Positions 36,187 through 44,397 of a stretch of DNA of 64,000 nt are shown here, one piece after another (the stretch's first letter is position 1; each line of letters opens with the position of its first letter). A model generated the notes under the pieces. That model was not told where the DNA came from, did no database searches, and saw nothing but the letters and a program-made list of their open reading frames with translations. Both the position numbers and the translations under genes were made by a program. This stretch comes from Thermoproteota archaeon (GTDB lineage Archaea > Thermoproteota > Nitrososphaeria > Nitrososphaerales > Nitrosopumilaceae): assembly GCA_003352285.1 (NCBI GenBank), contig QQVN01000004.1:62001-126000 (forward strand). The letters are read 5' to 3'.

Positions 36187-36810
36187 CTACTCTTTCTTTG
36201 CAGCTGGCTTTGCACCTGCTGCTGGTTTTGCGTCAGCAGCTGGCTTTGCACCTGCTGCTGGTTTTGCGTCGACTGCTGGAGCTGCACCTGCTGCTGGAGC
36301 TGCACCTGCTGCTGGAACTGCACCTGCTGCTGGAGCACCTGCACCACCAGCTGGCATAACTTTACCACCTTTAGCAACTCCTACTGCTCCACCTTTTCTT
36401 CCAGTGGTTCTCGTTCTCTGACCTCTAACTTTTAATCCAAACATGTGACGGTAACCTCTCCAACTTCCAGTGGTTCTTTCTCTTTCAACATCATTTCTTA
36501 CTGTAAACTCAATATCAGATGTTATCAAATGAATATTTCTTCCTGTTTCTACATCCTTTCTTCTATTTAGGAACCAAAGTGGAAAATTTGCAGAAGCTGG
36601 ATCTTGTAAAATCCCTTCTATTGCCTGAACTTGAGATTCAGAAAGATAACCTATACTATCATTTGTATCAATTTTTAATTTATGCAATATTGCATTAGCA
36701 AAATTATATCCAACACCACGAATTTGGGTTAAACCTACCAGCATCTTTTTACTTCCTGGTATATCATTTCCCACAATTCTAACAATGTGTCTATATTCTT
36801 GTGTAGCCAA
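36187..36810 (-). CDS. rpsM: 30S ribosomal protein S13 (uS13) with Ala/Pro/Lys-rich tail
   Basis: Small-subunit head protein contacting tRNA and the 50S subunit; 207 residues, of which about the first 150 are the conserved archaeal S13 ([17 protein letters not shown]..., [26 protein letters not shown]). The remaining 55 or so residues are a low-complexity run of PAAGA and KPAAGA units ending AAKKE. The start is TTG at 36810; a TTTTTATC box near 36841 supports a leaderless transcript. rpsD follows 9 bp later. Confidence 0.96.
36199..36345 (-). repeat. 18-bp-type tandem repeat in the S13 tail
   Basis: Reads as repeated GCACCTGCTGCTGG units on the plus strand, coding Ala-Pro/Lys-Ala-Ala-Gly on the minus. 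Units differ by a few bases and alternate Ala and Lys forms, so slippage-driven length change is likely. Confidence 0.75.
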
Positions 36811-39881: not shown

Positions 39882-40199
39882 ATGAATATGGGGAAAACAT
39901 ATGATCACCAAAAAATAATTGATTGCATCTTTGATCCAATTACCTCTCAAATCTTATCAGAACTTGAGGATGGTGAAAAAAATATTTCGCATCTATCTAA
40001 TCAAACTGAGATATCAGAAAATGAGATTCAAGACCGATTATTCTATCTTGTTGAGACTGGTTTTGTTACTATGACTAATGATGGCCAATCTATCTCATAT
40101 TCAGCTGATGCAGAAAAACTATCCAAAGTCATTGAAGATGAACAAAATTTTGATGGTGCAATTGATGGATTAACAAAAATGGATAGTTACCTTAACTGA
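39882..40199 (+). CDS. small winged-helix protein
   Basis: A 105-residue ArsR-like winged helix-turn-helix: PITSQILSELEDGEKNISHLSNQTEISENEIQDRLFYLVETGFV, then a wing GQSISYSAD and a C-terminal helix. No cysteine sensor residues, so it is not an ArsR metal sensor. It begins immediately after the VWA stop, with a second ATG two codons in. Third gene of the AAA+/VWA operon; it may regulate it, or act as an adaptor. Its 3' end overlaps the facing membrane protein by 8 bp. Confidence 0.78.
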   Translation: MNMGKTYDHQKIIDCIFDPITSQILSELEDGEKNISHLSNQTEISENEIQDRLFYLVETGFVTMTNDGQSISYSADAEKLSKVIEDEQNFDGAIDGLTKMDSYLN

Positions 40200-40737
40200 T
40201 TCTTTTTTTACATTTATTTTTAATCACAACAAGTCCCATGATGATAATTCCTATTAGGCCAACAATTAAGATGTAAAATCCTGTATAGCCTATGACTAGT
40301 TTATCAGAACTAGGTAAATGACCTATCGCAATAATTATCTCTGTTTCACTACCGGAATTTTCAACTGATAGTCTGTAATTTCCTTGAGTTTGTATTTCAA
40401 ATTGTTTTTCATATGATTCCTTCTCGATATTTGATGAATCAATTATGGCTCCAAAGGGATCAAAAAGATTCACTGATACTGCATTCTCTTGAAAATTCAT
40501 CACCTGGACAACATAGACCCCAGTGTCTTCTATCGCTGGATCAAGAAATGATTCCACATCTAGGCTACTTCCTGAACCAACTTTGGCAGTATTCTGGGTA
40601 AATCCTTCAGTTATCATCTGTGAGCCATAAAACGAAAGTACAATCCCTAACACAACAATTCCGCCTACTATGACTAGGAATATGCCTGATTTTTGCATTG
40701 ATTCTGCAGTTGTATTCCTGTAGTTAAAACTTAGCAT
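40192..40737 (-). CDS. membrane protein with extracellular beta domain
   Basis: Not recognised by name; 181 residues from ATG 40737. It has two membrane helices, about residues 15-37 (SGIFLVIVGGIVVLGIVLS) and 155-177 (ILIVGLIGIIIMGLVVI). Between them is an exterior domain with GVYVVQVMNFQENAVSVNLFDPFG and QGNYRLSVENSG, which resembles a small beta sandwich of the GOLD or COX2-tail kind. It diverges from the multicopper oxidase gene across the palindromic operator region and may share its regulation. A TTG three codons upstream is an alternative start. Confidence 0.7.
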   Translation of the reverse strand: MLSFNYRNTTAESMQKSGIFLVIVGGIVVLGIVLSFYGSQMITEGFTQNTAKVGSGSSLDVESFLDPAIEDTGVYVVQVMNFQENAVSVNLFDPFGAIIDSSNIEKESYEKQFEIQTQGNYRLSVENSGSETEIIIAIGHLPSSDKLVIGYTGFYILIVGLIGIIIMGLVVIKNKCKKRIS

Positions 40738-40749
40738 TATACTCAAACC

Positions 40750-40768
40750 TAAAGTTAGCCTAGGGTAA
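40750..40768. promoter_or_regulatory. DtxR/IdeR-like operator, site 1
   Basis: Contains GTTAGCCTAGGGTAAC (40754-40769), a 16-bp palindrome with one mismatched pair. Over 19 bp (40750-40768) it matches the remembered DtxR/IdeR iron-box consensus at about 15 positions. It lies upstream of the multicopper oxidase TATA box, between divergent genes. Confidence 0.5.
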
Positions 40769-40773
40769 CAAAT

Positions 40774-40787
40774 TTAGCCTTGGCTAA
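40774..40787. promoter_or_regulatory. DtxR/IdeR-like operator, site 2
   Basis: TTAGCCTTGGCTAA, palindromic except for its central two bases, spaced exactly 19 bp from the TTAGCC of site 1. It abuts the TATA-like TTTTAAATA (40788-40796), so a bound regulator would block TBP/TFB entry. Confidence 0.5.
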
Positions 40788-40796
40788 TTTTAAATA
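40788..40796 (+). promoter_or_regulatory. TATA box of the multicopper oxidase-ZIP operon
   Basis: TTTTAAATA, centred 26-27 bp before ATG 40819. It directly adjoins operator site 2. Confidence 0.6.
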
Positions 40797-40818
40797 AGGT
40801 GTTTAAAGAAAATTATTG

Positions 40819-41877
40819 ATGAAAAAAACTCGCTCAACGACAATGTTTTCAATTATATCTATTAGTGTAGTTTTAGGTTCGTTATTCTTTGTTTTACCTG
40901 TAATTTCTGAAGCACAAAAAGAAGAAAAGACGTTTGTAACTCATTCTGGTAGGGTTGTCACTACATCTGGTGAAATATTAGATCCTCTTTACACAAGTAC
41001 CACTTTGGAGTTTGATCCAATGGAATTTCTTCGAGATTTTAATTATGGAAGAGTATCTGAGCTTCCAGATGGAACCATTCTAAGGGAATATACGATTATT
41101 GCAGAGGATGACGGAATCATGGAAGTTTCTCCTGGGGTTTTTTACAATGTTTGGACATTTAATGGAACAGTTCCAGGTCCAACTATCAGAGCAACAGAAG
41201 GAGATTTGGTTCGAATAAAATTCATCAACAATGGTGAAAAGGAGCACACTATGCATTTTCATGGAATTCATGAAGCGCATATGGATGGAGTCTTTGAGCC
41301 AGTTGGTCCCGGTGGTGGAAAATTTGTCTACGAATTTAGAGCCGGACCTGTTGGTGTTCATCCATACCATTGTCATATAATGCCATTAGAGGAACACATT
41401 GTCCATGGATTGTACGGTGTTTACATCGTAGATCCTAAAGAAGGCAGAGCACCTGCAGATGAAATGGTAATGGTTCTGAATAGTTTGGATACTGACTTTG
41501 ATACCGAAAATAATTTCTACGCTGCAAACACAATTCCATTTTACTATCAACACCATCCAATCCAAATTAACACTGGCGATTTAATCAGAGTCTATGTAGT
41601 AAACATGGTCGAATTTGATCCAATAAACAATTTCCATTTGCATGGAAATTTGTATCGTTATAACCCAACTGGAACTGACACCGACTCTTTTTACACTGAC
41701 ATGATTACTCTTTCACAAACTGAACGTGGAATAATGGAATTTTCATATGATTATCCTGGGAAATATCTATTTCATGCTCATAAAGTAGAATTTTCAGAGA
41801 AAGGCTGGGTTGGATTATTCCTAGTAAACGGGGAGCCATTAGCTGAAACCATTGGAAGTATAAACTATGGAAATTAA
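40819..41877 (+). CDS. two-domain multicopper oxidase, exported
   Basis: Exported copper oxidase of 352 residues with a signal peptide (hydrophobic residues 11-30). Domain 1 has HFHG (H146, H148) and HPYHCHIMPLEEHIVHGLYG: C185 and H193 are type-1 ligands, the His residues around C185 serve the trinuclear site, and the axial position is Leu198, not Met. Domain 2 has FHLHG and FHAHKVEF, keeping His ligands but with Ala replacing the type-1 Cys. Only domain 1 is blue, the type C layout. Start is ATG 40819. Overlap with the ZIP gene suggests oxidation of a metal before uptake; nitrite-reductase-like activity is less likely. Confidence 0.88.
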   Translation: MKKTRSTTMFSIISISVVLGSLFFVLPVISEAQKEEKTFVTHSGRVVTTSGEILDPLYTSTTLEFDPMEFLRDFNYGRVSELPDGTILREYTIIAEDDGIMEVSPGVFYNVWTFNGTVPGPTIRATEGDLVRIKFINNGEKEHTMHFHGIHEAHMDGVFEPVGPGGGKFVYEFRAGPVGVHPYHCHIMPLEEHIVHGLYGVYIVDPKEGRAPADEMVMVLNSLDTDFDTENNFYAANTIPFYYQHHPIQINTGDLIRVYVVNMVEFDPINNFHLHGNLYRYNPTGTDTDSFYTDMITLSQTERGIMEFSYDYPGKYLFHAHKVEFSEKGWVGLFLVNGEPLAETIGSINYGN

Positions 41878-43042
41878 TCAAACATCTAAAGCAAAAATCA
41901 TTGCAAGTGGGGTCATCCCTTTTGCATTTCTGATTATTTTAATCGCATACATTTTTGGTCCAGGTGCTGAACTTTTAGACCTTGGCATTGCTTTACCTGA
42001 GATTAGTATTGAAAAAGTTGAATTTCATAAATCTGAAATTCATGCAACTGTAAGAAATACTGGACCTATTCCTGTAGAGATTGTAATGGCTGATGTTAAC
42101 GATAGAATTCATCCTGCCGCAGTAGAACCTGACAGATTTCTAGAAAGATTTGAGACTGCTTTAGTAAGAATCCCATTTGAATGGAATGCAGCTGAACCAT
42201 ACATTATTGGTATAACTATTGAGGACGGAACAAGATTTGAAAAAGAGATAGAGGCCGCAGCCCCTGCTGTCCAACCTACTATTGAGTTAACAGGGTATTT
42301 TGCTATTATCGGAACTTATGTCGGAGTAATTCCTGTCATGATTGGATTACTTTGGTTGCCTTTTATCAAAAGAATAAGTAAAAGTAAATATCATTTTTTT
42401 CTAGCCTTAACGGCTGGACTATTACTCTTTTTGGCAATTGATTCTATTGAGGAAGCAATTGATGTATCCAATGAAAATCTCTCAGGCAGTTTTAATGGAG
42501 CTCTGCTTGTAGCCACAGTAATCACTCTATCATTTTTGGGATTGTATTATTCTGGTTCGAAACTTACACAAAGTGTAGTATCGTCTCGTTTTTCAAAACC
42601 AATTGCAATAGCACTTATGATTTCAATAGGAATTGGATTACATAATTTTGGTGAAGGACTCGCAATCGGAGCTGCTGTGGGACTAGGTTCTATTGCGTTT
42701 AGCACTTTTCTAATTGTAGGATTTGCTTTACACAATACTACTGAGGGTATAGCGATTGCTGCACCAATGTCACGAGGAAAATTAATGATAGGAAAACTCA
42801 TTGGTCTTGGATTAATTGCAGGCTCTCCTGCCATATTTGGTGCCTGGGTTGGAGGTTTCGTTTATTCTCCATTCACTGCAGTTGTATTTTTATCAGTAGG
42901 AGCCGGTGCAATATTTCAGGTAATTGTTGTATTGTTAAAATGGCTCAAGGAAGAGGGCGACAAGAATCTTTCTAGCGCATCATTTGCTTCAGGTTTTGCA
43001 TTAGGAATGCTAATCATGTATCTGACAAGCATATTGGTTTAG
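41867..43042 (+). CDS. ZIP-family metal transporter with N-terminal extracellular domain
   Basis: Divalent metal importer of 391 residues. The C-terminal two thirds hold the ZIP membrane helices with signatures HNFGEGLAIG and HNTTEGIAIA, whose His and Glu line the metal path. Unlike ordinary ZIPs it starts with an anchoring helix (about residues 10-32). An exterior beta domain of about 100 residues follows (EISIEKVEFHKSEIHATVRNTGPIPVEI). It overlaps the multicopper oxidase gene by 11 bp, so the two are made together. Likely iron, copper, zinc or manganese; the operator suggests iron or manganese control. Confidence 0.88.
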   Translation: MEINQTSKAKIIASGVIPFAFLIILIAYIFGPGAELLDLGIALPEISIEKVEFHKSEIHATVRNTGPIPVEIVMADVNDRIHPAAVEPDRFLERFETALVRIPFEWNAAEPYIIGITIEDGTRFEKEIEAAAPAVQPTIELTGYFAIIGTYVGVIPVMIGLLWLPFIKRISKSKYHFFLALTAGLLLFLAIDSIEEAIDVSNENLSGSFNGALLVATVITLSFLGLYYSGSKLTQSVVSSRFSKPIAIALMISIGIGLHNFGEGLAIGAAVGLGSIAFSTFLIVGFALHNTTEGIAIAAPMSRGKLMIGKLIGLGLIAGSPAIFGAWVGGFVYSPFTAVVFLSVGAGAIFQVIVVLLKWLKEEGDKNLSSASFASGFALGMLIMYLTSILV

Positions 43043-44397
43043 ATTGGTTCTGGATGAATAGTAATTACCGCTTCACTAAATCTAGTTCTAATCTTTTGTT
43101 CAATCTGTGATGTAAGGTCATGAACCTTTTCAATTGAAAGATTTCTATCAAATGAACAGTCTATGTCAATTTTCTGTATGTCATTATAATGAAGTATGAT
43201 TATACGACCAATTTTCTGAATTTCCTTATACTGCTCCAAGATTTTTGTAATTTCATCCTCAGCTTTTTTTCCTTCCATCTGTAAATTATTAGGAATTGTA
43301 ATGTGTGGTTCTATGTGAACAGTTACATGCTCAATTTCTGGAAAATTTTTCTGAATTTTAAGCTCAATTTCTTCAGAAATTTTATGTGCTGATTCTAAAT
43401 TTATTTCTCTATCTACCATTACATGCAAGCTTGCAAATATTTTTCCTTGAGATTTGTATGTGCTTACATTATGGATATTTTTTACTCCAGAAATTGAACC
43501 TGCAATTTCATTAATCTTCGAATCTAATGGAACTTGTTCCCAATTTGGCTCAAAATGAACTGTAATTGTAGAGTTTGCAATATTTTTTTTAATGTTTTTT
43601 TCAACATTACTTGATATCTCATGTGCTCTGTCAAAACTTACATCTCCTCTTAACGATATGGTGATATCTCCAAACAGAGTATCGCCTGATCTTCTCATTA
43701 GAACTGATTTTGTATTCAACACTCCGTCGGTATTAATCGCTATGTTCTTAACTTGTGACACAAGATCAGGAGAAATAATATCTGTTAACTCCATTGCAGT
43801 TCTGTAGATTAATTTTAAACTTAGAACCACTAAAACAATTCCCAGGATAAATGCGGCAATAAAATCTCCATAGTAAAATCCGTAAGTAACAAAAATAATT
43901 CCAATTATTGCTACCATCGTAGATCCAAAATCAAGAAAGGCATGATAGAAATCAGCCTTTAGTGTCACGCCGCCAATTTTTTTTATTGATTTTCTTAGAA
44001 GAATTATGCGAAATACATCCACTCCAATTGTGTAAAAACCTGCAATTAATGCAAAAAATCCTGGCAGTATCAATGGAGGTGGACTAGTTGCCCGTTCAAC
44101 TGATTCATAAATGAAAAATATTGCAATTAAAAATATTGCAATTCCCCCAATTAATCCTCCAAGCGATTCAATCTTTCCGTGACCATAGGTGTGTTCTGCA
44201 TCAGGAGGCTTGATAGACATTCTTGCAGCTAAGAGAAGAATTACTGTAACTACACTGTCTAAGAGAGCATGAATACTGTCTGTAATGAGGGCAAGGCTAT
44301 TCGAAACTAACCCGAATACTAGTTCTACCACAAATGCCGATAATATTGCAAAAAGTGAAATCTGCAGAACTTTGGTTTTATGAAGAAACACACTCAT
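43039..44397 (-). CDS. cation diffusion facilitator with three tandem C-terminal domains
   Basis: Exporter of divalent metal, 452 residues. Membrane helices carry HxxxD in TM2 (H43-D47, SIHALLDS) and TM5 (H152-D156, FYHAFLDF), the Zn/Cd-type signature. The usual CDF has one C-terminal ferredoxin-like domain. Here three follow in tandem, each with a gamma-V-x-N/K start and a VH-x-E-P ending: HFEPN (about 274), VHIEPH (about 346) and IHPEPI (452). It overlaps the facing ZIP gene by 4 bp. Divergent from the surface-protein gene at 44457. Confidence 0.9.
   Translation of the reverse strand: MSVFLHKTKVLQISLFAILSAFVVELVFGLVSNSLALITDSIHALLDSVVTVILLLAARMSIKPPDAEHTYGHGKIESLGGLIGGIAIFLIAIFFIYESVERATSPPPLILPGFFALIAGFYTIGVDVFRIILLRKSIKKIGGVTLKADFYHAFLDFGSTMVAIIGIIFVTYGFYYGDFIAAFILGIVLVVLSLKLIYRTAMELTDIISPDLVSQVKNIAINTDGVLNTKSVLMRRSGDTLFGDITISLRGDVSFDRAHEISSNVEKNIKKNIANSTITVHFEPNWEQVPLDSKINEIAGSISGVKNIHNVSTYKSQGKIFASLHVMVDREINLESAHKISEEIELKIQKNFPEIEHVTVHIEPHITIPNNLQMEGKKAEDEITKILEQYKEIQKIGRIIILHYNDIQKIDIDCSFDRNLSIEKVHDLTSQIEQKIRTRFSEAVITIHPEPI

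Follow-up and report, generated by a model that had tools for sequence, protein, structure and literature searches.

MCO1 is among the better-known orphan enzymes of the ammonia-oxidising archaea, and the gene pair that it forms with a ZIP-family transporter is already known (PMC7785015, PMC5767755, PMC5817080 and Kerou 2016). So far its role has been sought in hydroxylamine oxidation and, in papers from 2020 to 2025, in copper acquisition, a hypothesis set out in PMC7785015, PMC12448741 and PMC11849493. The pair described here is an orthologue of the known MCO1-ZIP, with the same genes in the same order, and lies in a 64-kb window, the whole stretch of DNA that was analysed and to which the coordinates refer. 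In a literature search confined to papers available without subscription, no report was found of an operator in front of this pair, of its linkage to MntR or to manganese, or of replacement by MntH behind the same operator, and the operator appears to be undescribed so far.

The tandem operator and its promoter

The features of the locus are as follows.

39882..40199, plus strand: ArsR/SmtB-like winged-helix protein, syntenic (HTH_metalloreg 2.8e-8, below the cut-off)
40195..40698, minus strand: divergent small membrane protein sharing the intergenic operator region (start at 40698 placed by homology; syntenic in most Nitrosopumilaceae)
40755..40768, no strand: distal operator palindrome TTAGCCTAGGGTAA, from the sequence; distal partner of the 19-bp pair in 58/63 relatives
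40774..40787, no strand: proximal operator palindrome TTAGCCTTGGCTAA, abutting the BRE/TATA (at least one site at ≥11/14 in 63/63 MCO1 promoters)
40789..40796, plus strand: TATA box TTTAAATA, 23 nt 5′ of the ATG, from the sequence (the arrangement recurs in most aligned promoters)
40819..41877, plus strand: MCO1, exported two-domain multicopper oxidase, 352 aa (Pfam PF07732/PF07731; PDB 3gdc, 1.5e-94)
41867..43042, plus strand: ZIP-family metal transporter (BbZIP match by sequence and fold)

The two palindromes stand at the promoter as the sequence-only reading had placed them, exactly 19 bp apart from start to start, with the TATA box directly 3′ of the proximal site. The distal site departs from a 6-2-6 palindrome at a single position, and the 6-bp arms of the proximal site are perfectly complementary. 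Given the order of the second site, the TATA box at 40789-40796 and the MCO1 ATG at 40819, the transcript is probably leaderless. The number of sites alone is unremarkable (1.19 expected in the window at ≤2 mismatches, 2 observed); rather, it is their pairing, their position at the promoter and their conservation that make them more than chance. A search of the 1.69-Mb genome from which the window comes, as had been proposed, found the tandem pattern at ≤2 mismatches in one place only. Three sites in that genome lie within one mismatch of TTAGCCNNGGCTAA, two of them being the MCO1 operator pair, and the sites at two mismatches are background, with a control count above the observed one, so that we claim no wider regulon there.

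What relatives conserve is a 14-bp palindrome with the consensus TTAGCCTAGGCTAA, for which we required agreement at ≥11/14 positions. Of 63 different MCO1 upstream regions from Nitrosopumilaceae, every one contains a site, compared with 0.83 regions per set in a first-order Markov simulation of the same sequences, and 58 of the 63 contain a pair exactly 19 bp apart, compared with 0.10 regions per simulated set; the palindromes on whose conservation the sequence-only reading had depended are thus retained across this set. Triple sites occur in 10/63 promoters, and the spacing histogram is dominated by 19 bp (68 pairs), with 38 bp next (12 pairs). The A-rich flanks are also conserved, with AA before TTAG and W after CTAA. 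We also scanned 91 family genomes at ≤1 mismatch. Those that have the single consensus hold about one or two copies each, nearly always at MCO1, and a reversed-consensus control was near zero in the same genomes; 65/91 have the tandem pattern, mostly at MCO1 or mntH. MCO1 orthologues were present in 54 of the 73 family genomes sampled, the named loci being from Nitrosopumilus, Nitrosarchaeum, Nitrosotenuis, Nitrosopelagicus and relatives, which identifies the family as Nitrosopumilaceae. At several Nitrososphaeraceae MCO1 loci no site was found upstream, although a regulator gene is adjacent. In one locus (L196) a decayed MCO1 copy at 538-1100 keeps the 19-bp tandem operator just 5′ of an intact MntR-MCO1-ZIP cluster.

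This conservation bears on the identity of the operator. Site 1, taken in the 19-bp frame 40750-40768 (TAAAGTTAGCCTAGGGTAA), does agree with the iron-box consensus TWAGGTTAGSCTAACCTWA at 15 of 19 positions by hand count, as the sequence-only reading had put it. The 19-bp iron box itself, TTAGGTTAGSCTAACCTAA, has to be given up, because relatives conserve only the 14-bp unit, in tandem.

The oxidase and the transporter lie in overlapping frames, as first described, with an overlap of 11 bp. MCO1 has a type 1 copper site in domain 1 only and four HxH trinuclear motifs that make up a complete trinuclear site; C185, H146/148, H184/186, H273/275 and H319/321 are invariant among 12 diverse orthologues. 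Pfam gives no ZIP match for the second protein, even at E ≤ 10, and the NCBIfam ZupT match (6e-10) is below cut-off. Its sequence matches BbZIP (8j1m, 4.9e-6; 5tsa, 7.7e-6), which is also the top match to its modelled fold (5tsa, 2.3e-6, prob 1.00; model pLDDT 83.7), and the metal motifs of TM4 and TM5, HN.GEG and HN..EG, are invariant. The model places an N-terminal TM helix and an extracytoplasmic β-sandwich (about residues 46-128) ahead of the ZIP membrane domain, and this predicted extension could dock MCO1.

Other genes nearby include a convergent CDF efflux transporter at 43039-44397 with three ZT_dimer matches, which adjoins MCO1-ZIP also in L096 and L099, and an S13-like ribosomal protein at 36187-36810 with a long Ala/Pro/Lys repeat tail. 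About 2.7-4.1 kb past the MCO1 match of another genome (L097, G058) lie a ZnuA-like binding protein gene and a divergent NikR/CopG-like gene, a pair without an MntR-type site.

Importers and regulators linked to the operator

In most genomes without MCO1, mntH stands behind the same operator. An NRAMP search found strong MntH proteins in the MCO1-less genera g6 and g9, as well as in MCO1-less G068, of another genus, and in G093, a member of the Nitrososphaeraceae that also lacks MCO1. Eight g6/g9 loci (L115, L116, L120, L121 and L123-L126) have the 19-bp tandem arrangement at the mntH promoter, and single sites precede mntH in L113, L117, L118, L122 and L131. Two MntH proteins encoded behind tandem sites were scanned, and both score above the NCBIfam MntH cut-off. 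In G093 mntH and a divergent MntR-type gene flank the perfect palindrome TTAGCCATGGCTAA. In G008 the place where MCO1-ZIP usually lies is taken by mntH, behind a degenerate 19-bp pair. There a VWA fragment is followed by an ArsR-like gene, the divergent TM gene and mntH (L114, Nramp start at about 1390), which looks like replacement of MCO1-ZIP in situ; the G008 bin also holds an MCO1 contig.

MCO1 and mntH exclude each other among family genomes at least 90% complete, with 42 holding MCO1 only, 10 mntH only, none both and 3 neither. The Fisher value of 1e-8 ignores kinship, and about three separate switches would account for the pattern (in the g6/g9 clades, in G068 and in G093). Nitrosotalea has been described as lacking MCO1 and having an acquired NRAMP, with no regulatory tie drawn between the two (PMC5767755), and because this pattern matches that of g6 and g9, we infer that these genera are Nitrosotalea-like lineages. 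For the MCO1-less genera examined, mntH behind the same operator offers an alternative reason for the absence of MCO1.

A third type of importer is found behind the same sites. TroA-type ABC operons are preceded by tandem sites in G001 and G045 and by a single site in G058 and G019, the latter being one of the three genomes with neither MCO1 nor mntH. In G001, which is closely related to the window's species and whose bin has 8% contamination, the tandem operator precedes genes for a TroA-type binding protein, an ATPase and two permeases (L133 377-4254, G001:C71), and the best PDB match of the binding protein is TroA (4.4e-79). The ZnuA/AdcA-type paralogues that were checked have no such promoter sites. 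Elsewhere, a TTAGSCTAGSCTAA site is conserved in genus g20 between a tetrapyrrole gene cluster and a gene for a 466-aa protein (L135 2670, L136 2575), a possible second target, and extra single sites occur in G020/G131 (beside tetrapyrrole genes and the 466-aa gene), G126 and G048.

In Nitrososphaeraceae (L080-L083 and several of L199-L213) the gene directly 3′ of MCO1-ZIP encodes a DtxR-family protein; a gene of this family is found directly 5′ of MCO1 in one genus of the Nitrosopumilaceae (G030, G045 twice, G058) and at some further loci. Several MCO1-ZIP loci with an adjacent MntR-type gene have TTAACCTAGGCTAA or a similar palindrome upstream. Every archaeal regulator examined that is linked to MCO1 has DEHEEH at the positions of the Bacillus MntR ligands D8/E11/H77/E99/E102/H103, the six manganese ligands whose roles are described in PMC6860424. 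Two DtxR-family proteins of the window's own genome score above cut-off, L108 and L109. L108 has all six MntR ligands, its best PDB matches are MntR (6kta, 1.1e-26), and its NCBIfam MntR score of 130.7 bits is just under the cut-off of 138; its gene is unlinked to MCO1-ZIP. Given the six ligands and its 53-63% identity to the MCO1-linked regulators, L108 is the likely trans-acting MntR that would bind the MCO1 operator here. Close L108 orthologues (71-79% identity; L137, L139, L141) are found in the MCO1-less genera. L109 belongs to a distinct branch and carries Met and Cys at the positions typical of DtxR. An IdeR/DtxR iron-box regulon would call for a regulator with Met10/Cys102 iron ligands linked to the target; the linked regulators are MntR-type, and the three copies of L109 examined lie away from MCO1. 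What stands of the DtxR-like, metal-repressed operon in the sequence-only reading is the DtxR-family operator, the probably metal-repressed uptake and the exported copper oxidase with a ZIP importer, with the iron box to be read as MntR-type.

The MCO1 lineage has been described as restricted to thaumarchaea (PMC7785015). The closest bacterial relatives of MCO1 are 49-63% identical and come from Spirochaetes, Gemmatimonadota, Chloroflexi, Bacillus, Croceifilum, Kribbella and Dadabacteria, with a ZIP gene directly downstream in 15/15; contrary to that description, therefore, the lineage has close relatives outside the thaumarchaea. A DtxR-family gene is near the pair in 11 of these 15, immediately upstream in seven, and nearly all of the linked proteins carry aspartate at position 8 and glutamate or aspartate at 99 instead of the IdeR Met/Cys pattern. 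A TTAG-N6-CTAA palindrome is found within 150 bp upstream of the first gene in 11/15 loci (1.2 expected), and the control element recurs together with the MCO-ZIP module across domains. Viral MCO1 genes are reported in the literature for some viruses of ammonia-oxidising archaea; our scan of viral contigs for MCO1 found no relative.

Function of the MCO1-ZIP operon

On these comparisons we consider it likely that MCO1-ZIP is a metal-acquisition operon under repression by a DtxR-family protein of the MntR type, for which Mn(II) is the most likely signal, and that MntH can take its place. Given that the same operator also stands in front of manganese importers of known types in relatives, MCO1 probably serves manganese (or manganese/iron) acquisition. 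Manganese is the likelier metal, with iron the main alternative, because the linked regulators have MntR ligands and the operator also precedes genes for MntH and TroA-type importers. Against a strict manganese reading, MntR-like proteins, NRAMP and TroA can also handle iron or zinc.

For the scheme that follows we infer binding, the identity of the metal, the direction of repression and the substrate of the oxidase. With metal in sufficient supply, each of the tandem 14-bp palindromes would be occupied by an MntR dimer; the proximal dimer, sitting over or beside the BRE/TATA, would block TBP/TFB, and the paired dimers may bind cooperatively, as at known tandem MntR/SloR sites (PMC11275975). 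When manganese is scarce, derepression would give a leaderless MCO1-ZIP mRNA; ZIP would then import Mn(II), and possibly Fe(II) too, while the copper oxidase would act next to it on the outer side of the membrane. Our guess for the oxidase is that it removes Fe(II) or Cu(I), letting an unselective ZIP take Mn(II); an alternative guess is that metal oxidation is coupled to uptake. ZIP carries divalent ions, so oxidation-coupled import would be mechanistically awkward.

The same objection applies to iron acquisition, in which Fe(II)-responsive DtxR-family control would act on a ferroxidase-ZIP pair like Fet3/Ftr1, since ferroxidation would counter uptake through ZIP. This reading gains from the 15/19 agreement of site 1 with the iron-box consensus, from the resemblance of the IdeR half-site TTAGGNNNNCCTAA (PMC8464063) to TTAG-N6-CTAA, from the ability of NRAMP and ZIP to carry Fe(II), and from the lack of a known iron-specific uptake system in N. 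maritimus (PMC9723733). However, the linked regulators have MntR ligands instead of Met/Cys iron ligands, and the Met/Cys-type L109 is a separate protein, its three examined copies all lying away from MCO1; we regard iron as unlikely, if still the rival to be taken most seriously. In the current published view, MCO1 oxidises Cu(I) to Cu(II), which ZIP imports. Copper limitation mildly to moderately induced MCO1 and ZIP in N. viennensis (log2 0.81 and 1.33, PMC7785015), and MCO1 is said to be the only multicopper oxidase induced by copper limitation in N. maritimus (according to PMC12448741). Yet the operator and the linked regulator are MntR-type, MntH and TroA-type importers stand under the same operator, and the copper-response motif TTCSGSMTTTGWACYANT (PMC7785015) is, compared by eye, unrelated to the operator palindromes, all of which makes copper acquisition improbable. 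Control by the CopC/D copper motif was also considered and ranked low.

The copper response could be reconciled with manganese acquisition if copper-starved MCO1 fails and thereby brings on a secondary manganese or iron starvation. In yeast copper deficiency likewise leads to iron deficiency, through Fet3. We predict that copper limitation would cause secondary manganese or iron starvation in ammonia-oxidising archaea.

Binding of the operator by the neighbouring ArsR/SmtB-like protein (39882-40199) rather than by MntR seems very unlikely to us. Its gene is syntenic with MCO1 in most Nitrosopumilaceae and is kept beside it even in a reduced genome (L090), but it was undetected near MCO1 in Nitrososphaeraceae, genus g12 and bacteria, groups that keep the palindrome and have a linked DtxR-family gene. 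A role of MCO1 in ammonia metabolism through hydroxylamine oxidation, with the operator incidental, was proposed by Kerou 2016 (as cited in PMC5767755) and is hard to credit alongside a metal-regulator operator, strict ZIP linkage, the absence of MCO1 from Nitrosotalea (PMC5767755) and bacterial relatives of 49-63% identity that have ZIP and often DtxR-family neighbours.

More broadly, the operon may represent a cross-domain uptake module made up of an MntR/DtxR-type regulator, a type-C-like two-domain copper oxidase and a ZIP with an extracytoplasmic domain. In this module the oxidase would act directly in the uptake of divalent metal, either oxidising the substrate itself or clearing away competing Fe(II)/Cu(I). 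The module would be a copper-dependent substitute for MntH and an analogue of Fet3/Ftr1 with an unrelated permease. We offer this tentatively and lean slightly against it. The operator probably links MCO1 with manganese-type metal starvation, and the regulon that it defines, in one of the ocean's most abundant archaeal groups, can be tested.

Relation to known systems

The best structural relative of MCO1 is the Arthrobacter blue copper oxidase 3gdc, a type C two-domain multicopper oxidase with the same domain and copper layout. As in yeast Fet3/Ftr1, a copper oxidase, presumably extracytoplasmic, is paired with a metal permease, with a putative coupling here; unlike in yeast, the permease belongs, on its sequence and fold, to the ZIP and not to the Ftr1 family. 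With the IdeR/DtxR iron box (PMC8464063) the operator shares the outer TTAG...CTAA half-sites and the 14-bp single-dimer core, but it has C instead of G at position 5 and no conserved 19-bp box, and the regulator linked to MCO1-ZIP is without Met/Cys iron ligands. The likeness to the Bacillus and E. coli MntR regulon (mntH, mntABCD; PMC11275975, PMC6860424) extends to a regulator with six manganese ligands, palindromic operators, tandem dimer sites, which are known there, and MntH and TroA-type ABC importers as targets. What sets the archaeal system apart from that regulon is the operator TTAGCCTAGGCTAA itself, its 19-bp tandem spacing, the archaeal BRE/TATA and an MCO-ZIP pair as the main target.
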